Origin: Candidatus Methanomethylophilaceae archaeon
Lineage (GTDB): Archaea > Thermoplasmatota > Thermoplasmata > Methanomassiliicoccales > Methanomethylophilaceae
Assembly: GCA_944322255.1 (NCBI GenBank)
Contig: CALUOK010000022.1
Coordinates: forward strand, 1 to 32,221
Length of the DNA stretch: 32,221 nt
Direction: 5' to 3'
Shown here: positions 11,840-26,685 of the stretch, piece by piece
Layout of the letters: each line of letters begins with the position of its first letter
How positions within the stretch are numbered: the first letter of the stretch is position 1
The notes under the pieces: model-generated
Told to the model about the DNA's origin: nothing
What the model saw: only the letters and a program-made list of their open reading frames with translations
Database searches by the model: none
Made by a program: the position numbers and the translations under genes

Positions 11840-11896
11840 GCTGAAACCCTTTCCACAAACCCCTTAACGCCGTTGCCCCCAGTTGGATGTAACAGT

Positions 11897-11907
11897 CAAC
11901 GTTATAA
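11897..11907 (+). promoter_or_regulatory. TATA box of the putP-like gene
   Basis: The TATA-like CGTTATAAG is centred about 42 bases upstream of the chosen ATG at 11943, giving a leader of roughly 15-20 bases. Confidence 0.45.
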
Positions 11908-11942
11908 GTCCAGTACGGCGTCACATCCATCCGGTATTAAGA

Positions 11943-13481
11943 ATGGACGCAATGACAATACTGGCGTTCGTCATCTACTTCGTTGCCCTGATCATCATCG
12001 GAGTCCACTTCTGGAAGGTGAAGGACAGGGACAGCATGGAGGACTACATCCTCGGAGGTAGATCGTTCGGACCTTACGTGAGCGCCATGTCGGCGCAGGC
12101 CTCCGACATGAGCGGCTGGCTCCTGATGGGTCTCCCGGGATCCATCGTCCTCGCCGGTCTGGGACAGGCGTGGATCGGGATCGGACTGCTCATCGGATCC
12201 TACTCGTCCTGGCTCTTCGTCGCGAAGAGGCTCAGGAAACACTCAGTCGTTTCTAAAAACTCCCTTACGATGCCCGAGTTCTTCTCCAACCGCTTCGCAG
12301 ACCACAAGGGTTACCTGAGGATCGTCTGCGCCGTGGTCATCCTGTTCTTCTTCACGATCTACGTGGGATCCGGATTCAAGAGCTGCGGAATCGTCATGGA
12401 GATGCTGCTGGACGACATAGGAATGCAGATCGGAATCATCGTCGGCGGTGCCGTCATCATCCTGTACACCTTCCTCGGAGGCTACAAGGCCCTCTGCTGG
12501 ACCGACTTCTTCCAGGCCATCCTGATGGTCGTGGTCATCGTCGCCGTCCCCCTGGTCATCATCGGGGACTTCGGATGGGACAACATCACGGCCGGCTGGG
12601 ACGACATCATGACCAGAGAGGTCGACGGCATCGCGGGATACACCAGCCTGTTCTACAACGCCGGTGTGCCGATCACGCTGACCGTCGTGATATCTGGACT
12701 GGTGTGGGGTCTCGGCTACTACGGTATGCCCCACATCGTGGTCAGGTACATGTCCATCAGGAAGGTCTCCGAGATCAAGGTCGCCCGCAGGGTGTCCCTC
12801 ATCTGGGGAATCCTGGCGCTCTCGTTCATCTGCCTGATCGGAATCATGGCCGGAGTCTACCTGCCCGCCAACGGCATAGACATCCTGAACTACTCCAGCT
12901 CCGACGCTGAGTTCGTGTTCATGGAGACCGCGAAGGTCCTGTTCGAGCACTCCGCCCCGTTCATCCTCGGAGTGGTGTTCGCCGCCATCCTCGCCGCCAT
13001 CATGTCCACCGCATCCTCCCAGCTGCTGGTGTCCGCATCGTCGATCACCAACGACGTTCTGGCCAAGAGCGACAGGTTCCACATCTCCGAGAGGAATCTC
13101 CTGTGGCTGGCCAGGGGAATTGTCGTGGTCATCTCCATCATCGGAATGTGCCTGGCGCTGTTCGGAAGCGACAACATCATGGGTCTGGTTTCCTACGCCT
13201 GGTCCGGATTCGGATCCGCGTTCTCGCCTGTCATGATCCTCGCCCTGTTCTGGAAGCGCATGAACTGGCAGGGGGCCATGGCCGCCATGATCACCGGATT
13301 CGTGGTCGTCGTGTTCTGGGAGACCTTCATGGACTTCACCGGAATGTACTCCCTGTTCCCCGGATTCATCCTGGCGTTCATCGTGGCGGTCGTCGTCGCG
13401 AAGCTCACGCCGCCTCCCTCCCAGGAGGTCCTGGACGAGTTCGAGGCCGCGCAGAACTACGTGGACCCCGAAGAGGCATAA
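11943..13481 (+). CDS. Sodium/solute symporter, PutP (proline) type
   Basis: Membrane symporter of 512 residues in the sodium:solute symporter family, with about 13 hydrophobic segments and the LeuT-like core. The segment DMSGWLLMGLPG with a following AWIGIGLLIGSY is close to the Na+/proline carrier PutP of bacteria. The stretch STASSQLLVSASSITND near residue 360 is the family's sodium-site helix. It imports proline or a related compatible solute with Na+; exact specificity cannot be read from the sequence. I chose ATG 11943 (MDAMTILAF) because the longer start adds 20 polar residues before the first helix and overlaps the TATA box. It is a single gene with its own promoter and terminator. 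Confidence 0.9.
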   Translation: MDAMTILAFVIYFVALIIIGVHFWKVKDRDSMEDYILGGRSFGPYVSAMSAQASDMSGWLLMGLPGSIVLAGLGQAWIGIGLLIGSYSSWLFVAKRLRKHSVVSKNSLTMPEFFSNRFADHKGYLRIVCAVVILFFFTIYVGSGFKSCGIVMEMLLDDIGMQIGIIVGGAVIILYTFLGGYKALCWTDFFQAILMVVVIVAVPLVIIGDFGWDNITAGWDDIMTREVDGIAGYTSLFYNAGVPITLTVVISGLVWGLGYYGMPHIVVRYMSIRKVSEIKVARRVSLIWGILALSFICLIGIMAGVYLPANGIDILNYSSSDAEFVFMETAKVLFEHSAPFILGVVFAAILAAIMSTASSQLLVSASSITNDVLAKSDRFHISERNLLWLARGIVVVISIIGMCLALFGSDNIMGLVSYAWSGFGSAFSPVMILALFWKRMNWQGAMAAMITGFVVVVFWETFMDFTGMYSLFPGFILAFIVAVVVAKLTPPPSQEVLDEFEAAQNYVDPEEA

Positions 13482-13815: not shown

Positions 13816-14967
13816 GTGAATTACTTTACTTTTTAACTAACTATAAATTCATCAACGGCATCCATTAATCATGGCAAGGCCGATTAGCAAGACGGTTTCC
13901 ATGGATGTGACGGATGAGGAGATCGAAGGAATGATGAAGGACCTCAGGTCCTCGATTTCGGACAAGAAGGCGCTCAAGGCCATCGAACGTCTGTACTTCA
14001 TCAAGATGAGACGTGCCGGTGTCGAGATGTCCAAGGCGATGGAGATCTCGGACATCTCCAAACCGACCGCATACGAGTGGCTGGATGACTGGAACCAGCA
14101 CGGTCTCGAATCCGTCATCCCCAACTATGCCGGCGGGGCACCCCGCCGGCTGAATGACGAGCAGCTCGAGGCCGTCAAGGACGAGCTGAGGAAGCATGAC
14201 ATGACCACCGAGGAGATACAGGCCTTCATCTCCGATAGGTTCGGGGTCGAATACACCAAGAAGCAGGTGGCGGTGAGGATGCGCGGTCTGGGGCTTCACT
14301 TCGCGAAGCCCTACGATCACGATTACCGTGCCCCCGACGATGCCGAGTCTAGTTTAAAAAAAACGTCCGCTGGGCGCTGGCATCTCTGAGTCGGAAGGAG
14401 CGCAGGCATGCCGTCATAGGCTTCCTGGATGAGTCCAACAAGGAGATCAACGCCAGTTCCGTCCGTCTTTGGTCCGAATCCAGGCCGACCCGTATGATAA
14501 ACTACTCCCTGGACGTCGTCAAGGTGAGCGGCTTCTATGCCCTGAACGGGCAGTCCGTCATCCGGCGTCTCGACGACGCGACGGCGCCCAGCATCTGCAA
14601 GATGCTGGAAGCCGTCCGCGAGGCCAATCCCGGACGCCCGATTGTGATGATTCTCGACAACGCATCCAACCATCATTCGAGACTGGTGACTGGAAAGGCC
14701 TCGGAACTGGAGATAAAACTGGCTTTCATGCCGCCTTATTCGCCACAGTACAATCCCATCGAGCAGATCTGGAAGTGCGTGAAGCGCGAGATCTCCAAGA
14801 ACTTCATCATCGACAAGGACGAGCTGTTCTGGCTGATTGAATCGGTGTTCATGGAGAAGTCTGCTTCAAAAGGCTACGCCAAGTCATGGATGAGGAAGTT
14901 CCTGCCGAAGAAGATGAGGAACAAGATCCTTTCATCGAGAGTTAGTTAATTATGTTAGGTTATTAAC
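13816..14967 (+). mobile_element. Complete IS630-family insertion sequence
   Basis: A 1152-bp element flanked by TA dinucleotides (13814-13815 and 14968-14969), as expected for the TA target duplication of IS630 elements. The ends are imperfect inverted repeats of about 30 bp. The left end begins GTGAATTAC and the right end, read inward, GTTAATAAC. Both share a perfect inner block, TTAACTAACT (13833-13842) and its complement (14940-14949). Inside is one transposase in two frames. The element is more AT-rich at its ends than the surrounding genome. Confidence 0.85.
13871..14949 (+). CDS. IS630-family DDE transposase made by -1 frameshifting
   Basis: The N-terminal part (13871-14389 if not shifted) holds a helix-turn-helix region (SKAMEISDISKPTAYEWLDDW) and a second HTH-like domain. 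The catalytic part is in the -1 frame. It begins near 14359 and carries the DDE residues: GFLDESNKE, ILDNASNHH and YSPQYNPIEQIWK. The frames meet at 14353-14363, T TTA AAA AAA AC, a perfect X XXY YYZ slippery heptamer, giving a 359-residue fusion. The catalytic frame has an ATG only at 14494, after the first Asp, so a separately started product would be inactive. Without the shift, ribosomes stop at the TGA ending at 14389. Frameshifting is known in this family; here it is read from sequence only. Confidence 0.87.
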
Positions 14968-18479: not shown

Positions 18480-19364
18480 CTAAACCTCGACCCCTCGATG
18501 TCCCGCGGCCTCCTGGGCGTGAATCGGTGCGAGCGCGGGGATGTTGACCCTCCCCGTCATGCGGACTGTGTCCGAGACCGCGACGGTGAGCATCACCGCG
18601 GCCCCTATCTCCAACGGATCGTGGATTATCGCCTTCGCGCGCCTCCCGGCCTCATCGTCGAAACTGTACGGGACACCGGGGGACGACACTATCGCGCCCT
18701 GTATCATGTCCTGACCGGGGATCGTTCCCGGAGTGGCGTTCAGGATCAGCCTGTGCGTGGATACGGCTTCGCGCACATCCTCGATCCATCCGACACCTTC
18801 GTACACCGCGAGTCTGCGGGCCTTCTCCGCATCTATGTCGGTCACGGACACCATGGCGTGCATGTCCCTGAGGATCCTCACTGCCTCCGACCCTACGAAC
18901 CCGGCGCCCATGACCAGCACCTCCTTCCCGGCCAGTCCGCCCGCAGCGTCGCGCAGCGCGTAGGAGTAGCCGAGGGCGGTGCAGCGGGCGTTGTCCGCCA
19001 CGGTCCCCGTGACCGTGTTGTAGGCCACGAACCTGTCGTCGTCCGCCATCAGGACGATGTCCGCCCCGGATTCGACCGCGGCGGCGAACCCCGAGACGTC
19101 CGGTACATTGGATACATGGCTACGCATGCCCAGATGCCTCGCTATGGCGTCCAGCGACTGCGCGAACCCGCCAATCTCCCCCAGACCCGATGTTATCGGC
19201 ACCGATACGACGGAGAAGGATGAAAGGTCCATCCCTCCGGGAAGGCCGGCAGCCTCCATCGCAAGCTCCCTCACCGTGCGTCTGGTGGCCGCCTCGAGCC
19301 TGGTGTCCAGGCGCGCCCCGTCCCACACGTCCTCTATGTCATCCGACGTCAGTCTGGTCATCAT
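18480..19364 (-). CDS. pylD: Pyrrolysine synthase PylD
   Basis: Catalyses the last step of pyrrolysine synthesis: oxidation of L-lysine-Ne-3-methyl-D-ornithine and ring closure with NAD+, releasing ammonium. The protein has 294 residues. The C-terminal half has a Rossmann fold with the NAD-binding GAGFVG at 153-158; the N-terminal half (SSFSVVSVPITSGLGEIGGF) matches the PylD cap region. It is the last gene of the pyl operon and its ATG overlaps the pylC stop (ATGA). It ends in TAG, the only such stop in this window. Readthrough with pyrrolysine would add Pyl plus 24 residues, up to a TAA at 18405-18407 inside the ferredoxin start. Confidence 0.93.
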   Translation of the reverse strand: MMTRLTSDDIEDVWDGARLDTRLEAATRRTVRELAMEAAGLPGGMDLSSFSVVSVPITSGLGEIGGFAQSLDAIARHLGMRSHVSNVPDVSGFAAAVESGADIVLMADDDRFVAYNTVTGTVADNARCTALGYSYALRDAAGGLAGKEVLVMGAGFVGSEAVRILRDMHAMVSVTDIDAEKARRLAVYEGVGWIEDVREAVSTHRLILNATPGTIPGQDMIQGAIVSSPGVPYSFDDEAGRRAKAIIHDPLEIGAAVMLTVAVSDTVRMTGRVNIPALAPIHAQEAAGHRGVEV

Positions 19365-20515
19365 AACACCTCCGGACCCTCGTCCGTGAAACTATCAAGC
19401 GACATCTCATCCAGCATCCTTCCGGTCACGGCCTCCGACCTGGAATCTGCCTCGTCCGGGGAGTTGCCGGACACGATCAGAGTGGCCCTCCACTCGTCGG
19501 CGTGCGGATCGTAGTCGGTTATGGCGAGATCGGAACCGAACAGCCCCTCCTCGAACCTGGGCGAGTGCACCCTGGCGAACTCCTTCTCACCGCAGCTCCT
19601 CAGGATCCCGTCCGAGAAAACCACATGGCGGTAGACGGAGGAGCCTGTGAACGGTCCGGATCCGCGGAGCTCCCCCTCTGCTGAGCTGATCATCTCCATC
19701 AGAAGGTTCACGCCTGTGGCGGCCAGCACAGCCGCGGGGGTCTGGCTGGGGATGCGCGCATCCACCTCCAGGACCTTCAGGCCGGACCGCGTGGCTATCG
19801 CCTCGACGTCCATTATCCCCCTGAGTGCCAGTGCATCGGCCACCGAGATGCCTATACCGTCCAGAAGCCTCTCCTCGCTTTCATGGAGTATGCCGGGACG
19901 ACAGCGTACCATCTTGCAGTCGTAGTACGGGTCCAGACACACCTCCGTGGTTACGAACGCCTCGGAGCGCAGACCGTCGCCGATGACCTCCACCGACACG
20001 CTCCTCCCGCTGACGAACTCCTGGATGACGGGCCTGTCGCCCAACGCACGGACGTCGCTGATGCCCCCGGATAAGCCACGGATGTTGTGCGCCAACGTGA
20101 CTCCGACGCTCCCGCTGAGCGATGAGGGCTTGACGATCGCCGGGTACCCGCACTCCGGCCATGACAGCGGCATCGGAACATCGAGGGAGGCCATCAGCCT
20201 GTTGGACTTCAGCTTGGAGCTGGTCACGGCATACGCCCTCGGATCGAAGAGCAGCCTCCCATCCTCGACGGTGGAGACCAGGGCGTCCAGCGTACGCCGG
20301 CTCTCGCACGCGGGGATCACGAAGTCGCAGCCATCCGTCAACTCGGAGAAGGATTCCGGATCGGTCACCGGATCCATGACGACGGGCTCGTCGCACAGGG
20401 ACAGCGCCGGAGCGTCGGGACGCCTGTCCACGACGACCGAGGACAGGCCGGCGGCCCTCGCCAGCAGAACGCACTCCATCCCCTGGAGGGCTCCGCCGAC
20501 TATGCACACCCTCAT
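19361..20515 (-). CDS. pylC: Pyrrolysine biosynthesis ligase PylC
   Basis: ATP-grasp ligase of 384 residues that joins (3R)-3-methyl-D-ornithine to the epsilon-amino group of L-lysine. The N-terminus has a nucleotide-fold loop GGALQG. The middle carries ATP-grasp motifs (GYPAIVKPSSLSGSVGV, then VIQEFVSGRSVSVEVIGDG), and the C-terminal LKVLEVDARIPSQTP is the metal/ATP-binding strand with Glu and Asp. ATG 20515 is chosen because it overlaps the pylB stop by ATGA and begins directly with the Rossmann strand; a longer frame runs back through pylB. It lies between pylB and pylD in an operon with overlapping genes. Confidence 0.94.
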   Translation of the reverse strand: MRVCIVGGALQGMECVLLARAAGLSSVVVDRRPDAPALSLCDEPVVMDPVTDPESFSELTDGCDFVIPACESRRTLDALVSTVEDGRLLFDPRAYAVTSSKLKSNRLMASLDVPMPLSWPECGYPAIVKPSSLSGSVGVTLAHNIRGLSGGISDVRALGDRPVIQEFVSGRSVSVEVIGDGLRSEAFVTTEVCLDPYYDCKMVRCRPGILHESEERLLDGIGISVADALALRGIMDVEAIATRSGLKVLEVDARIPSQTPAAVLAATGVNLLMEMISSAEGELRGSGPFTGSSVYRHVVFSDGILRSCGEKEFARVHSPRFEEGLFGSDLAITDYDPHADEWRATLIVSGNSPDEADSRSEAVTGRMLDEMSLDSFTDEGPEVL

Positions 20516-21558
20516 CGCAGCGCCTCCCTGCGGGAATCCATCCACCTGCGGTACTCCCCGGCGTTGGCGGGCTCGAATCCCAGGTCGCCGAGTACGGACA
20601 TCACATGTTCCGCCGAACGGTTGCCGTTGGCGATGTCCAGTTCGTGCTGGGCGACCCCCGCCAGGTCCCCTTCGGAGGGCACGATGGATGTCACCACGTT
20701 GGCTCCCGCGTTCAGCCTGCATGGGAGTCCCGCTATCCCGTCCACGTCGAGGCTCGCAGGTATCAGACGGTCCGGGCAGAGGAGCCTCATGACGGCTATC
20801 GCGCGGATTTCGTCGACCTCCCTCCCGGGATCGCATGCGAACATGGGCGTCCCGGTCTGCGGGACGAACGCCATCGCGCGCATCTGATCGCATCCGGTGA
20901 GCCCCATGTCGACGATCGAACGGGCACGGCCCTCCGTGCTCTCCCCTATGCCGACCATGATCCCGTCCTCGGCCAGGAGTCCTGCGGCATGGGCCCATGT
21001 CTTCTGATCCCTGCGGATGTCGAAATCCTGGGATCCGCGGACTCTCCCGAACAAGGTGCGGTCGTACGTCTCCTGGTAGCAGGCCAGCCAGTCGGCTCCT
21101 GCCTCCCTCAGCGGGACCATGAGCTCCCTCGGGACCGTGCCGGGGGACGCCATTATGCCTATGCCGACGGCATCGCGGACCCGGGAGACCAGGCTCAGGA
21201 AGCGGCCGAACCCATCGTCCCGCATCACGGGGTCCTCCCCCATGGTCATGTCGATCAGGTCCACGCCAGAGTCTTCCAGACTCCCCGCGAGGGCCACGAC
21301 GTCCTCCGGATCCTTGCGGTACCTCTGCACGGAGGTGTTCGACCTGCGGTAGTAGCAGAACGGGCAGTCGTTGCGGCAGTGGGTGGAGAAGTAGGCGAAA
21401 CCGTAGGTGAAGACCCTGTTGCCGAAGCGGCGATCCCTGACCTCCCTGGCGGCGGACAGCAGTTCCTCCAGATCACGGCCCTCGGCTGCGAGCAGCTCGG
21501 CCACGTCCCCCTCGCAGTACACACCGGATGTCACGCATCCGATCGCATCCGTGATCAT
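20512..21558 (-). CDS. pylB: Methylornithine synthase PylB (radical SAM)
   Basis: Radical-SAM mutase of 348 residues that converts L-lysine to (3R)-3-methyl-D-ornithine, the first step of pyrrolysine synthesis. The [4Fe-4S] cluster motif CRNDCPFC (Cys 61, 65, 68) is followed by a TIM-barrel frame with DMTMGEDP and a SAM-binding GIGESTEGR. The family resembles biotin synthase and HydE; PylS, PylC and PylD alongside fix the assignment. It starts four bases after the pylS stop and overlaps pylC by ATGA. It needs an electron donor, for which the ferredoxin downstream is a possible candidate. Confidence 0.95.
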   Translation of the reverse strand: MITDAIGCVTSGVYCEGDVAELLAAEGRDLEELLSAAREVRDRRFGNRVFTYGFAYFSTHCRNDCPFCYYRRSNTSVQRYRKDPEDVVALAGSLEDSGVDLIDMTMGEDPVMRDDGFGRFLSLVSRVRDAVGIGIMASPGTVPRELMVPLREAGADWLACYQETYDRTLFGRVRGSQDFDIRRDQKTWAHAAGLLAEDGIMVGIGESTEGRARSIVDMGLTGCDQMRAMAFVPQTGTPMFACDPGREVDEIRAIAVMRLLCPDRLIPASLDVDGIAGLPCRLNAGANVVTSIVPSEGDLAGVAQHELDIANGNRSAEHVMSVLGDLGFEPANAGEYRRWMDSRREALR

Positions 21559-21562
21559 GGGA

Positions 21563-22384
21563 TCACCCTATCCTGTAACCGTCCAGGTAGCTGAGGCTCC
21601 TGGACGTCTTGCGGATTCCGCTCCGGCCGTCTCTGAGCATGAGCAGACGCTCCAGTCCGAAGCCGACGCCGGCCCAGGGCTCGTGGATGTCATGAGCGGG
21701 GTCGAGAGGATGTGGTCCGACGGCGCCGGACGCCACCTCCACCCCGTCGACCTCCACGTCCAATGTCTCGACGTACACGTCTGACTCCTCGCGGGACAGC
21801 GTGTAATCCAGGCCGACGGCGTCCATGACCGCGGAGATCCAGCTGCGCAGATGCCCTGTCGCGTCCCCGTCGGGACCAAGCTCGACCAGGTTCATCATCG
21901 TGAACTCCTCCAGATGGCGGGAGCTCTTGGACTCCTTCCTGAAGCATGACCCGATCTCGAATATCCTCACGGGCCCGTCCGTGTGGTCCCTGAGCCTCCT
22001 CATGACCACGTAGAGGTTGGGAGCCAGCATCGGCCGGAGGCATCTCCTTTCGTCGATGAGGAACATCTGCCTGTACAGCGGATGTCCCTCGGTGATGCCC
22101 ATCTTCTCCAGTGACGAGAGGGACACGATCGTAGGCGTACGCACCTCGATGAACCCCTCGGCCACCAGGCGGTCGGCTATGGCGCACTCGATGCCGCACA
22201 GGTCGTTCCGCCTGGGATGCGCGATGAGCTCCGAGATACCGTCCTCGTTCCGGGACACGAGCTCGGACACACACCTCGAGAAGACGGAGTCCCTCTCCGC
22301 TGCACTCTCGAATGAATCGCCGGACCTGTCCTCGTCGCCGTACTCCATCAGACGCTGGACCTGAGGCTCCGTGAATCTGATCAT
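21563..22384 (-). CDS. pylS: Pyrrolysyl-tRNA synthetase, short form without N-terminal domain
   Basis: Class II synthetase of 273 residues that charges tRNA-Pyl (anticodon CUA) with pyrrolysine. It corresponds to the catalytic domain only. No separate pylSn gene is in the window, as in the Methanomassiliicoccales group of free-standing catalytic enzymes. Motif 2 (FEIGSCFRKE, about 142-151) and motif 3 (GFGLERLL, 241-248) are clear. The pyrrolysine-pocket residues known from Methanosarcina enzymes are kept: Tyr125 (PNLY), Asn165 (FTMMNL), Tyr204 (ESDVY) and Trp237 (HEPW). It begins 16 bases after the CCA end of pylT, so tRNA and synthetase share a transcript, with a GGTGA ribosome-binding site before the ATG. 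Confidence 0.96.
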   Translation of the reverse strand: MIRFTEPQVQRLMEYGDEDRSGDSFESAAERDSVFSRCVSELVSRNEDGISELIAHPRRNDLCGIECAIADRLVAEGFIEVRTPTIVSLSSLEKMGITEGHPLYRQMFLIDERRCLRPMLAPNLYVVMRRLRDHTDGPVRIFEIGSCFRKESKSSRHLEEFTMMNLVELGPDGDATGHLRSWISAVMDAVGLDYTLSREESDVYVETLDVEVDGVEVASGAVGPHPLDPAHDIHEPWAGVGFGLERLLMLRDGRSGIRKTSRSLSYLDGYRIG

Positions 22385-22400
22385 TGTGAATCACCGCAAA

Positions 22401-22471
22401 TGGCGAAGGACCGGGGGGTCGAACCCCGCTTGCTAGGTTTTAGAGACCCGCTGGTCGCCGGACCGTCCTCC
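22401..22471 (-). tRNA. pylT: tRNA-Pyl, anticodon CUA
   Basis: A 71-base cloverleaf with an encoded CCA. The acceptor stem GGAGGAC pairs with GTCCTTC (one G-U), with discriminator G. The D-stem GGTC/GACC follows the acceptor with no linking base and has a four-base loop. One base separates it from the anticodon stem. The anticodon loop is CTCTAAA, reading CUA. The anticodon stem pairs only if one A on the 3' side is bulged. The variable loop has three bases and the T-stem CGGGG/CCCCG a seven-base loop TTCGACC. Missing linker, tiny D-loop and broken anticodon stem are known traits of Methanomassiliicoccales tRNA-Pyl. It decodes the UAG in mtmB. Confidence 0.96.
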
Positions 22472-22514
22472 ATAATTTGTTGTATATGGCTATGCTATTT
22501 CAATATTACTATAC

Positions 22515-22522
22515 AAATATAA
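22515..22522 (-). promoter_or_regulatory. Putative pylT TATA box
   Basis: TTATATTT on the minus strand lies about 45 bases before the mature 5' end of tRNA-Pyl. Transcription would start about 20-25 bases before the tRNA, leaving a leader for RNase P. A second candidate, TTGTATAGT (22508-22515), overlaps it. Confidence 0.45.
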
Positions 22523-22538
22523 TTTGATTCAATGTTTT

Positions 22539-22556
22539 ATTAGACAAATGTCTAAT
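22539..22556. promoter_or_regulatory. TTAGACA palindrome upstream of pylT (copy 1)
   Basis: ATTAGACAAATGTCTAAT has perfect 8-bp arms around a central AA. It lies about 20 bases upstream of the pylT TATA box. The same 16-base core occurs at 26460-26475 and, on the other strand, at 26669-26684. The location just upstream of the BRE/TATA suits an activator or a repressor of pylTSBCD. Confidence 0.7.
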
Positions 22557-22562
22557 GGTATT

Positions 22563-22615
22563 CCCGCCCCCGTGGTGATATCGGAAATGTGGCTGTGCTG
22601 ACGAGAGGGGGCGGG
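22563..22615. other. GC-rich inverted repeat between mtmB and pylT
   Basis: CCCGCCCCC (22563-22571) and GGGGGCGGG (22607-22615) form a perfect 9-bp stem enclosing 35 bases. It lies downstream of mtmB and upstream of the pyl promoter. It may protect the mtmB mRNA end, terminate transcription or be a small RNA; the loop shows no recognised motif. Confidence 0.45.
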
Positions 22616-22653: not shown

Positions 22654-24036
22654 TCAATGGATGTCCAGACCGAAGTCCCTGAGCGTCTGCGCCGCCCTGT
22701 CGTACACCTCGAGGTACTCCTGGGTCGGCTTCACGGTCCTCACGTCGTAGCACTCCTGGAACGTCTTCCCCTGAGGGGCGTTCTGGAAGTTGCACTCGTA
22801 GGTGGGGATCAGCTTGGCGAGGATCTCGTTCACGTCGGAGACCTTCATGCCCGCTGCAGCGATGGCCGCGTTGCCCATGATCCTAGCCTCCATCCCGGTG
22901 GTCTTGTCCTGGACCACTCCCTTGGCGGCGGCGGAACCGGAGAGCAGCTCCCTTCCGGAGGCGGTGTCCGTGATGGCCTGAGCCGCCGTCTCCAGCAGGC
23001 ACATCTCCGTGCATGGACCGGCCATCGGGTAGTACTGGTTGGCCAGAAGGAGGTCCGTGTGGGCGTCGATGGCCGCGGCCGCATGGGCGGCGACCTGGAG
23101 GGTCTCCTTGGCTGTGGTGACACCCCATCTGATGTGGATGGGACCGTCGAGATGGAAGTTGCCGCTGAACAGCGCGAATGATGCGAGGGTTGTCGCCACG
23201 TCGCAGATGGCGGTCTCCTCGATGCCTCCGCAGTACCCTCCGAAGATCGGCATCTGCTCGATCATGATGGTGTCGCCGACGGTGGTCCACCCGGCCAGCA
23301 TGTTCAGTCCGGTCATATCCATCTTCAGCTCGTTGAGCTGGGAGCACTCGTGGGGATCGGTGATCCTGTGTCCCGCGTTGGGGAGGTCCGCGCAGAGACG
23401 CCCCGCCTCGGAAAGGGGCGTCTCGGGTCCCTAGACACCGAGCCCGGGCCTTCCGGCCCTCACCCTGGCCTCCTTGGTCGCCCTGAGCTCGGCCATGGTG
23501 GCGCGGATCTCGTAGGGGGTCTTGGTCTTCGCGGGATGGCCCTCGATGGTGGTCATCACGCCGTTGACCAGGGTGTCCACGACGCCTTCCTGTGCGTAGG
23601 ACTGCATGACCTGGACGAAGATGTCCTCGGAGATGGGGGATCCTGTGGGTCCTCCCTGGATGATGGGCTTGACGGGGGAGTTCCCGTGCCTGGGGTAGAA
23701 CCTGGCGATGTCCTTGCCCTCGCCGAGGATCAGCTTCGTCGGGGTCTTCTTGATCCCCTCCCAGACCTCCTCCTCGGTGACGTGCATGATCCTTCCCAGG
23801 TCCTGGCAGTAGAACCCTGTGGTGACGAGCATCTCGAGACCGGCGTTGAACAGGTTCTCCTTGACCTCCTTGTCCTCGGGGATGATGTCCTTGCCGAAGG
23901 ACAGGTTGTACTTCTGCTTCAGAGCCGTGAGGTTCTCCGGGATCACCTTGTAGTCCCAGTCCTCGGCCTTCACCTTCTTGCCCTTGACGAACCTGTCGTA
24001 GACGTCGGTGATCGTGAGAGCTCTGGTCGCGGCCAT
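22654..24036 (-). CDS. mtmB: Monomethylamine methyltransferase MtmB with in-frame UAG (pyrrolysine)
   Basis: Transfers the methyl group of monomethylamine to the Co(I) corrinoid of MtmC, releasing ammonium, at the start of methylamine-driven methanogenesis. The reading frame is interrupted once, by TAG at 23431-23433. Read as pyrrolysine, this gives 460 residues, the normal length. The junction AGRPGLGV-Pyl-GPET matches MtmB of Methanosarcina, where Pyl is residue 202. With ATG 24036 (MAATRALT) the UAG is also codon 202, which supports this start over the GTG three codons upstream. Both sides carry conserved blocks: IIQGGPTGSPISED before; QMPIFGGYCGGIEET, HLDGPIHIRWG and AGPCTEMCLLE after. 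It starts just after the mtmC stop, and a strong hairpin follows the UAG. Confidence 0.96.
23395..23424 (-). promoter_or_regulatory. PYLIS-like hairpin downstream of the mtmB UAG
   Basis: On the mRNA strand GAGACGCCCC and GGGGCGTCTC form a perfect 10-bp stem with a 10-base loop, beginning six bases after the UAG. Downstream structures at this place in mtmB have been proposed in Methanosarcina as pyrrolysine insertion elements that aid, but are not strictly required for, UAG decoding. Confidence 0.7.
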
Positions 24037-24037
24037 C

Positions 24038-24679
24038 TCAGGCACCTCTCAGACTGTCGACGAGGCTGACGAGATCGGCCGCGGTCTCGGAGTATCCGTC
24101 GGCGCCGATCTGTTCGCACCAGGCCCTGCTGCACGGGGCGCCGCCGAAGACCGTCTTGTAGGGTGACTCGGTCTCCTTCACGTAGTCGACGACCTCCCTC
24201 TGGGCCTCGAGGGTGGTGGTCATCAGCGCGGATCCTCCGATCACGAACGCGTCGTTGTCGTCGGCCGCGTCCACGAAGTCCTGGGCGGTGACGTCGCATC
24301 CCATGTCGATGACGTTGTATCCGGCGCCGCGGAGCATGGCGCAGCAGACGTTCTTCCCGATCTCGTGGATGTCACCCTCGACGGTGCCCATCACGACGGT
24401 ACCCTTCATCGCGGAGTCCCCGGCGGACATGACCGGTCCGAGGATCTTCAGCGCGGCTTCCATGGTCTTGGAGGCGGCGACCACCTGCGGGAGGAATATC
24501 TCAGCGGCGTCGAACCTCTTGCCGATGTCCTCCATCCCCTTGCCGAGTCCGTCGTTGACGATGTCCTTCGGCTCGATTCCGGCCTCCAGAGCCCTGTTCG
24601 TGGCGTCCACGGCCTTCTGCACATCCCATGTCTCGATGGATGTCTTCAGTTCTTCGAGTATCTCACTCCTGTCTGTCAT
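24038..24679 (-). CDS. mtmC: Monomethylamine corrinoid protein MtmC
   Basis: A 213-residue corrinoid carrier. It accepts the methyl group from MtmB and passes it to a MtbA-type methyltransferase for coenzyme M methylation; mtbA is not in this window. The N-terminal four-helix cap (about 1-88) is followed by a B12-binding Rossmann domain with the lower-ligand motif D103-x-H105-xx-G108 (EGDIHEIGKN) and a GG near the C-terminus (VFGGAPCS). MtmC is favoured over the dimethyl- and trimethylamine homologues because mtmB follows immediately. An AGGAGA ribosome-binding site precedes the ATG. It lies 46 bases after glnK on the same strand with no obvious promoter between, so it is probably part of the amtB-glnK-mtmC-mtmB transcript. 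Confidence 0.93.
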   Translation of the reverse strand: MTDRSEILEELKTSIETWDVQKAVDATNRALEAGIEPKDIVNDGLGKGMEDIGKRFDAAEIFLPQVVAASKTMEAALKILGPVMSAGDSAMKGTVVMGTVEGDIHEIGKNVCCAMLRGAGYNVIDMGCDVTAQDFVDAADDNDAFVIGGSALMTTTLEAQREVVDYVKETESPYKTVFGGAPCSRAWCEQIGADGYSETAADLVSLVDSLRGA

Positions 24680-24725
24680 GATTCGGATTCTCCTGTCATC
24701 TCGAAAGCGTTTGCTAAAACGTTTG

Positions 24726-25061
24726 TCATTGTTCCTCCGGGGCGTCCCCGCCCCTGATCCTGATGGACATCTCCACGGGCAGGACGAAGATCCTCCCGTC
24801 CCCCTCGTGTCCGGTGTCCGAAACCCGCCTTATCGCGGAGATCGCCGTGTCCAACGTTCCGTCGTCCACGACCACCTCTACCTTGACCTTCTCCAGCTCG
24901 TCCACCAGGAACTGCCCGACCCTGTTGGTCAGCAGTATCCCGTTGGACTTCCCGCGTCCGATCACGTGGGTTATCGTCATGCCCCTGACACCGGCGTCGC
25001 GGAGGGAGTTCTTCACGCACTGGAGCCTCTCGGGCCTGATCACTGCGACTATCATCTTCAT
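24726..25061 (-). CDS. glnK: P-II family signal protein GlnK (divergent T-loop)
   Basis: Small trimeric P-II protein of 111 residues that normally senses ATP/ADP and 2-oxoglutarate and plugs the AmtB pore. The fold elements align without gaps to GlnB/GlnK: N-terminal strand, T-loop region 37-55, KVKVEVVV, and the B-loop TGHEGDGRIFV with RIR near the end. The T-loop is unusual. Gln39, which binds Mg-ATP/2-oxoglutarate, is Ser39, and Tyr51, the uridylylation site, is Phe51. Hence no uridylylation and possibly altered 2-oxoglutarate sensing. It is encoded 10 bases after amtB, the classical amtB-glnK pair, but is followed here by methylamine genes. It may be tuned to ammonium released by MtmB (inference). 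Confidence 0.9.
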   Translation of the reverse strand: MKMIVAVIRPERLQCVKNSLRDAGVRGMTITHVIGRGKSNGILLTNRVGQFLVDELEKVKVEVVVDDGTLDTAISAIRRVSDTGHEGDGRIFVLPVEMSIRIRGGDAPEEQ

Positions 25062-25071
25062 CCGGACCGCC

Positions 25072-26406
25072 TCACATCAGGTAGGACTGCTCCCCGTGGT
25101 CCACTATGTCGGAACCGACCAGCTGCTCGGACTCGGACAGCACGGCACCCTTGCCGTTGAACCTCCTCATCACCAGGTCGATGGCCTTCATCAGCACGAA
25201 GGACACTGCGAAGCAGTAGACCAGCGTGATCACGACAGACACGACCTGCCCGGCAAGGAGGTCCACCTGTCCCTCGATAAGTCCACCGCTGCCCTCCCAG
25301 CTGAGGGCTGCCAGGGAGAACAGTCCGACGGAGATGGCTCCCCAGATACCTCCGAGACCGTGGACGCCCATCACGTCGAGCGCGTCGTCCACGTCCTTCC
25401 TATGGCGCATGAATATGATGCCGAAGTAGCACACCACGGAGGCGACCGCTCCGATGACGAGCGCCGCCCAGGGCTCCACGAACCCACATCCGGGGGTGAT
25501 TCCGACGAGTCCCGCGAGGACCCCGGCGCACAACCCGGTGACGCTGATGCGGCCGACGTGGATGTACTGGATGGCGATCCATACCACAGTGGAGGCGCAC
25601 GAGGCGACGAAGGTGTTCTCCATTGCGAGGACGGCGATGTCACTGAAGGAACCGGCTGAACCACAGTTGAAGCCAAACCATCCGACCCAGAGCAGCATGC
25701 AGCCCAGGAACATCAGGGGCACGTTGTGGGTCCTGCCCTTCATGATGTGATCGCTCCTTCTGCCGATCGCCAGGGCCGCCGCGACTCCGGAGATTCCGGA
25801 GCAGATGTGCACCACGGTTCCTCCCGCGAAATCCTGCACGGGCAGACCGAGGTCGGAGAGCCCGGCGCTGAGGAATCCGCCTCCCCAGACCATGTGGGCC
25901 ATGGGCGCGTACACCAGCACGGACCACAGGGCGAGGAACGCCAGGATCGCGGAGTACCTGACCCTCTCGGCAGTGGCGCCGAAGACGATGCATGATGTGA
26001 CGATGGCGAACGTTCCCTGGAAGATCATGAACTCCACCATCGGGATGCTGCCGTTGCCCTCGGTGTAGGAAACACCTCCCCCGAGGGCGTTGTCGAGGCT
26101 TCCGATGAACGCGTTTCCGGAGTCGCCGAAGGCGAGCGTGTAACCGACCGCCCACCAGATGATGCCCACCACGGCCATCACTCCAACGCACTGCGCCATC
26201 ATGGAGGTCATGCTCTGCTTCCTGAGCATGCCGCCGTAGAACAACGCTATGGCGGGTGCCATGATGAACACCAGCATCGAGCAGAGGAACATGAAGACCG
26301 AGGATGACGTTTCCACGGTCTCGGTGTCCAGCGCCGCCGATGCCTCCGGTATCAGGAAAACCGTTACCGAGAGCAGCACGACCACTCCCAGCACGGCCTT
26401 CTTCAA
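25072..26406 (-). CDS. amtB: Ammonium/methylammonium channel AmtB
   Basis: Amt/Rh-family membrane protein of 444 residues with a signal-like first segment (1-25) and eleven further hydrophobic helices. Pore residues are present: twin histidines H200 (GGTVVHICSG) and H349 (VMGVHGLGG), Phe gate FQGTFA (129-134), and W174 (HMVWGG) at the entrance. Amt proteins carry ammonium and also methylammonium. In this operon, first gene before glnK, mtmC and mtmB, methylamine uptake is an attractive role (inference). The start is a TTG at 26406: an in-frame TAG lies two codons upstream, and no ATG precedes the first helix. The TATA box sits about 30 bases upstream, so the leader is very short. Confidence 0.92.
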   Translation of the reverse strand: MKKAVLGVVVLLSVTVFLIPEASAALDTETVETSSSVFMFLCSMLVFIMAPAIALFYGGMLRKQSMTSMMAQCVGVMAVVGIIWWAVGYTLAFGDSGNAFIGSLDNALGGGVSYTEGNGSIPMVEFMIFQGTFAIVTSCIVFGATAERVRYSAILAFLALWSVLVYAPMAHMVWGGGFLSAGLSDLGLPVQDFAGGTVVHICSGISGVAAALAIGRRSDHIMKGRTHNVPLMFLGCMLLWVGWFGFNCGSAGSFSDIAVLAMENTFVASCASTVVWIAIQYIHVGRISVTGLCAGVLAGLVGITPGCGFVEPWAALVIGAVASVVCYFGIIFMRHRKDVDDALDVMGVHGLGGIWGAISVGLFSLAALSWEGSGGLIEGQVDLLAGQVVSVVITLVYCFAVSFVLMKAIDLVMRRFNGKGAVLSESEQLVGSDIVDHGEQSYLM

Positions 26407-26431
26407 ACACTACAACTCAAATCAACTCCTG

Positions 26432-26459: not shown

Positions 26460-26475
26460 TTAGACAAATGTCTAA
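26460..26475. promoter_or_regulatory. TTAGACA palindrome upstream of amtB (copy 2)
   Basis: TTAGACAAATGTCTAA is identical over 16 bases to copy 1 upstream of pylT. It ends about 20 bases upstream of the proximal amtB TATA box, nearly the same offset as at pylT, and differs from the known NrpR operators of methanogens (GGAA-N6-TTCC types). Confidence 0.72.
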
Positions 26476-26667
26476 TTCTATTTGAACATTACTGAAATAC
26501 GCATTTCACATGGGATTCGAGAATTCCCATTCCGAATGTCGCATACCAGGAGAACCATCTCTGAAACGGACCGCAATAAGACCATTTTTTGAAAGATAAT
26601 CGAGTTGCTACCCCATGAATACGCGATAATAGTATTGGTTATTCGGGTAGATCCGCTCCGAAGCACT

Positions 26668-26685
26668 ATTAGACATTTGTCTAAT
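26668..26685. promoter_or_regulatory. TTAGACA palindrome, distal copy (copy 3)
   Basis: ATTAGACATTTGTCTAAT is the same motif with central TT, that is, copy 1 read on the other strand including the flanking A/T. It lies 25 bases beyond the 3' end of the MFS gene and 209 bp (centre to centre) from copy 2, close to a whole number of helical turns. Confidence 0.68.

Follow-up and report, generated by a model that had tools for sequence, protein, structure and literature searches.

The amtB-glnK-mtmC-mtmB array of a Candidatus Methanomethylophilaceae archaeon, a methanogen of gut type, very probably belongs to the nitrogen regulon of its genome, judging from a palindromic operator that it shares with genes of nitrogen assimilation. 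The array lies on the minus strand of a 32,221-nucleotide stretch of DNA, contig 22 of the genome (CALUOK010000022.1, assembly GCA_944322255.1), which was analysed whole and is called the window here. The 16-bp palindrome TTAGACAWWTGTCTAA occurs exactly six times in the 1.88-Mb genome (96% complete and, like the genomes of most relatives, a draft assembly), and the reversed control pattern occurs 0 times. This amtB has two copies upstream, as has a second amtB-glnK pair that stands elsewhere without mtmCB (contig 5); glnN-gltB (contig 3) and pylT, the gene for tRNA-Pyl, each have one. Because the operator is common to the genome's nitrogen-assimilation genes, mtmCB, and probably the pyrrolysine (Pyl) machinery, would fall under the same nitrogen regulon. 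The best explanation, which we consider reasonably probable, makes the array an operon for nitrogen scavenging, assembled from the monomethylamine pathway. The features concerned are as follows, with positions in the window.

26669–26684: distal operator, 209 bp upstream of the proximal copy
26460–26475: proximal operator TTAGACAAATGTCTAA of the amtB-glnK-mtmCB promoter, abutting the downstream side of the TATA-like element TCAAATAGAA (26476–26485)
25072–26406, minus strand: amtB, canonical ammonium/methylammonium channel; TTG start; PF00909 357 bits, TIGR00836; nearest solved relative Escherichia coli AmtB
24726–25061, minus strand: glnK, PII regulator of AmtB; PF00543 86 bits; T-loop compared with solved PII proteins
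24038–24679, minus strand: mtmC, monomethylamine corrinoid protein; PF02310 (B12-binding) and PF02607; TIGR02370 (pyl_corrinoid) slightly below cut-off
22654–24036, minus strand: mtmB, monomethylamine methyltransferase; PF05369 777 bits with the TAG read through
22563–22615, minus strand: G+C-rich hairpin 3′ of mtmB, probable terminator; stems 22563–22571 and 22607–22615; z-score −1.6, modest support
22540–22555: pylT operator copy, with the mtmB hairpin on one side and the likely pylT TATA box (22514–22525) on the other
22401–22471, minus strand: tRNA-Pyl (pylT), anticodon CUA; ARAGORN
21563–22384, minus strand: pylS, pyrrolysyl-tRNA synthetase, catalytic domain only; TIGR02367 274 bits
20512–21558, minus strand: pylB; radical SAM domain and position between pylS and pylC
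19361–20503, minus strand: pylC; ATP-grasp and PylC-like N domain (the latter weak)
18480–19364, minus strand: pylD; PylD_N 97 bits

An earlier note on this DNA had described amtB, glnK, mtmC and mtmB as same-strand genes separated by 10, 46 and 1 bases, with no visible promoter inside, and had seen nitrogen control joined here to methylamine demethylation. The arrangement is confirmed, with Pfam and NCBIfam support for each gene, and nothing in the gap separating glnK from mtmC resembles a TATA element, the one signal there being a Shine-Dalgarno-like AGGAG. The joining, too, gains support from the operon promoter and the region upstream of pylT, both of which carry the operator of other nitrogen-assimilation genes. 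The assignment of MtmB rests on its PF05369 family score together with one in-frame amber codon, a single TAG (pyrrolysine) at codon 202 (23431–23433). Past the mtmB hairpin the array runs on along the same strand into tRNA-Pyl and then pylS-pylB-pylC-pylD (18480–22384). An Rfam scan of the region found no small RNAs apart from a weak PYLIS_1 match at 23331–23433, just past the mtmB amber codon (26 bits against a gathering score of 70).

An operator shared by nitrogen and methylamine genes

The real window holds three exact copies of the palindrome, whereas 100 shuffled versions of it yielded no match to TTAGACAWWTGTCTAA even with two mismatches allowed. Across the order the palindrome was found in 48 of 147 genomes, with zero matches to the reversed control. 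Among the exact sites listed, 67 of 75 precede amtB, glnN, gdhA, glutamate synthase, lrp, mtmC or pylT; 41 lie 650 bp or less upstream of an amtB, and the others, by a reading of their neighbours, stand at glnN (9), gdhA (5), glutamate synthase (3), the intergenic region of lrp and an AlaX-like gene (7), mtmC (1) and pylT (1). The remaining 8 are mixed, unexamined or at contig ends, and at least one of them (G107) has an amtB start alongside. The distal copy seen here is also present at the second amtB-glnK pair. A TATA-like element, TTcAaATAT, abuts the upstream side of the site in 54 aligned promoter rows, a few of which are repeats of one promoter. The site lies just downstream of this element, where an operator placed between TATA box and transcription start would be expected.

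An exact operator copy 69 bp upstream of tRNA-Pyl would bring pylT-pylSBCD into the regulon. We see an even chance that the Pyl machinery, and hence the reading of UAG as pyrrolysine, is under nitrogen control, as part of one regulon with amtB, glutamine synthetase and mtmCB.

Several palindromes stand in other settings. One exact copy (G098; L058 5999–6290) precedes the gene for a 70-residue TOBE/molbindin-like protein, downstream of an orthologue of a major facilitator superfamily (MFS) gene of the window, a hint of nitrogen-controlled molybdenum handling. Others precede a LeuA/homocitrate-synthase-like gene (L057 5658), lie between DUF1846 and aspartate decarboxylase (panD) genes (L067 4295) or precede an unassigned open reading frame (L055 2958 and 3143).

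Neighbouring genes in the window and in relatives

Amt/Rh channels adjoin mtm genes across the order; canonical amtB-glnK stands near mtmB in only four surveyed genomes, those of the window, G015, G134 and G125. The order is amtB-glnK-pylC-pylD-mtmC-mtmB in G015 and amtB-glnK-pylSBCD-mtmC-mtmB in G134. The G015 locus (L040) matches that published for Methanomassiliicoccus luminyensis, whose PII-linked mtmBC we take to be cluster 3 by elimination from PMC5688252. In relatives the channel adjoining mtmCB is usually of Rh50 type, with a bacterial Rh50 as its best PDB match. No Rh50 was found in the window genome, where the only two PF00909 proteins are both canonical AmtB. Judged by gene position, AmtB-GlnK occupies here the place held by Rh50 in relatives; the idea that AmtB replaces MtmP-type permeases found no such support.

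Operators at mtmC itself occur in genus g7, where five species carry one about 190–212 bp before the gene. The site is exact in G043 and departs from the palindrome by one base in G034, by two in both G039 and G042, and by four in G038, the last being by itself no better than chance. In the genus g1 relatives examined, the operator was not found upstream of mtmC or pylS. The notion that mtm operators are unique to the window species was discarded, because the g7 relatives have them at mtmC. Nitrogen control of mtmC seems to have arisen at least twice, through operator gain in g7 and through joining to amtB-glnK here.

Two further arrangements concern the same genes. In G076 (L106 5220–5850) an intact lone mtmC-like gene directly follows amtB-glnK, without mtmB, and the G076 AmtB is the sister of the window AmtB in the tree (98/94 support). 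In G042 (L114 2780–2960) and G043 (L118 5200–5390), sister amtB genes standing before mtmC have an in-frame TAG at signal-peptide codon 8, in the contexts MTCRPSI-TAG-VGIAA and MTCKNSI-TAG-VSIAI. The surrounding changes are mostly synonymous or conservative, the nearest relative has Lys at this codon, and the TAG may be a pyrrolysine codon in AmtB. The window amtB start reads TTG TAG TGT TTG (26406–26415), with a ribosome site well placed before the first TTG; the alternative in-frame TTG at 26415 would put TAG at codon 2, and a start past the TAG is equally possible. L139 (1761–1790) presents a comparably ambiguous case. Pyrrolysine-dependent translation of the window AmtB was not accepted, as a good start is available downstream of the TAG.

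Farther along the window, on the plus strand, are a gene for a PutP-like sodium/solute symporter (11883–13481), 10 bits short of the curated cut-off, and the remnant of a split transposase with HTH_32 and DDE_3 pieces (13871–14949).

Proposed mechanism and rival explanations

The genome encodes mcrA and a full-length mtaB, its search gave no match to mtbB or mttB, and a PF05369 search found a single mtmB. From this gene content the organism would be a methylotrophic methanogen that uses methanol and monomethylamine. Its Pyl requirement, as far as methylamine methyltransferases go, is confined to MtmB.

AmtB scores 381 bits against TIGR00836 (cut-off 343), and all seven pore residues checked (F107, W148, D160, H168, F215, S219 and H318 in E. 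coli numbering) are aligned and identical. These canonical residues make entry of methylammonium through this AmtB plausible. Amt proteins are as a standard assayed with labelled methylammonium (PMC10433425). The case for the window AmtB as methylamine importer is evenly poised. The adjoining MFS gene was judged an unlikely importer, as it resembles drug-efflux MFS proteins. E. coli AmtB is blocked by GlnK (PMC10433425). The window GlnK, at 86 bits against 25 for PF00543, keeps the equivalent of R47, the T-loop arginine that plugs AmtB, which renders gating plausible here; it has Phe at Y51, the E. coli uridylylation tyrosine.

The best candidate for the regulator is an Lrp/AsnC protein. NrpR was rejected, being absent from the genome: PF01995 has no match there, and the control search was positive in Methanocaldococcus and Methanosarcina. 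TetR is disfavoured, a TetR gene standing beside amtB in genus g6 only. Seven genomes from two families have the operator in the space that separates an Lrp/AsnC gene from a divergent AlaX-like gene, and the window genome has this gene pair about 7 kb from the other amtB-glnK (lrp: L003 8978–9442). Precedents are published: an Lrp of Halobacterium activates glnA (PMC8229911), and Sa-Lrp has glutamine as its cofactor (PMC3584215).

In the mechanism that we propose, all these genes would be tied to nitrogen status by a regulator that responds to glutamine or nitrogen; the Lrp/AsnC protein whose gene lies near the other amtB is the most likely one. Nitrogen shortage would lead to synthesis of AmtB, admitting ammonium and methylammonium, of MtmCB, of the Pyl machinery required by MtmB, and of GlnK, which would shut the channel once nitrogen is ample. 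Methylamine would be split, its ammonium passing to GlnN-GltB and its methyl group to methane, and methanol, through MtaB, would be a fuel available without methylamine. That methylamine serves as a nitrogen source is likely.

Linkage of Amt/Rh and mtm genes is known from published work on M. luminyensis and M. intestinalis, which favoured a role in ammonium export or homeostasis (PMC4153887, PMC5209957). Under this explanation (Borrel et al., Matassi), the channel would export ammonium freed when methylamine is used as fuel, and the operator would have arrived with the amtB promoter. The recurrence of Amt/Rh channels beside mtm genes across the order speaks for it; however, the Rh50 of relatives has no such operator linkage, whereas here GlnK and a nitrogen operator accompany the channel; at high ammonium these would be expected to close AmtB and reduce its expression, when export needs the opposite. 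With the operator also at pylT and, in g7, at mtmC itself, we consider ammonium relief unlikely. A rearrangement might instead have put mtmCB behind amtB-glnK by accident, leaving a functionally meaningless linkage, as could be argued from the linkage of mtmCB elsewhere in the genus to Rh50 or to nothing and from the small number of genomes with a canonical pair near mtmB. Such a fusion appears quite improbable, given that the association recurs in three families with differing gene orders, that the sole mtmB of the genome depends on the linkage to amtB-glnK and that pylT has an independent operator copy.

The palindrome could also be bound by a regulator of wider scope that responds to amino acids (a feast/famine Lrp), with mtm and pyl genes following amino-acid supply rather than nitrogen. 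A few sites do precede leuA/homocitrate synthase, panD/DUF1846 and the small TOBE-like protein, and the regulator itself is a candidate proposed on sequence grounds, but the majority of sites, in many genera of two families, stand at genes for ammonium uptake or assimilation, and we think this explanation very unlikely. Nitrogen scavenging has its own difficulties. The lrp promoter of this genome has a half-site only, the pylT copy sits on the upstream side of the likely TATA box, not the downstream side, the palindrome is absent upstream of the M. luminyensis-like locus, and methylamine is still a methane substrate, so that its use as fuel is compatible with the same genes. Expression in M. 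luminyensis was counted in favour of nitrogen scavenging: in complex medium the PII-linked mtmC3 was not induced by methylamines, with a negligible increase on trimethylamine, and on monomethylamine only mtmC1 was highly expressed (PMC5688252). Because the corresponding locus lacks the palindrome, this pattern serves as an analogy only.

Significance and comparison with known systems

Methylamine use by Methanomassiliicoccales is treated in the literature consulted as an energy pathway. The shared operator makes an alternative role testable, in which methylamine is a nitrogen source and the Pyl system, with amber decoding, is set by nitrogen status. For a methanogen without NrpR, it also supplies nitrogen control with a defined operator and a candidate regulator, and such control could explain the non-induction of PII-linked mtmC3 by methylamines in M. 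luminyensis. The literature searched, mostly without subscription papers, held no report of the palindrome, of mtm or pyl genes with a nitrogen operator, or of methylamine as sole nitrogen source for these methanogens. The linkage of Amt/Rh to mtm genes is already known; new here, as far as the papers searched go, are the shared operator and its pylT copy.

The closest known system is the mtmBC3-pylC-PII-Amt cluster of M. luminyensis (PMC5688252, PMC4153887), which likewise has canonical amtB-glnK, pyl genes and mtmC-mtmB on one strand. It differs in its order (amtB-glnK-pylC-pylD-mtmC-mtmB), in the presence of three other mtmBC clusters and of mtb/mtt genes in that organism, and in that no upstream palindrome was found. 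The Rh50-mtmCB loci of Methanomassiliicoccales (PMC5209957) also set a gene of the ammonium-channel family beside mtmCB, but the window channel is a canonical AmtB with GlnK and nitrogen operators. With the amtB-glnK pair of bacteria and archaea the array shares the gene pair, the AmtB pore and the GlnK T-loop arginine; unlike that pair, it is extended by mtmC-mtmB, and Phe replaces the uridylylated tyrosine. The NrpR regulon of Methanosarcina and Methanococcus similarly unites amtB, glutamine synthetase and other nitrogen genes under a palindromic operator, whereas the window genome lacks NrpR, its operator sequence is different and its reach includes mtm and pyl genes. Archaeal Lrp systems (Halobacterium Lrp, Sa-Lrp; PMC8229911, PMC3584215) resemble the one proposed here in the Lrp-family gene, in glutamine synthetase as a putative target and in putative autoregulation; the operator described here is specific to the order, and the putative Lrp regulon extends to the mtm and pyl genes.

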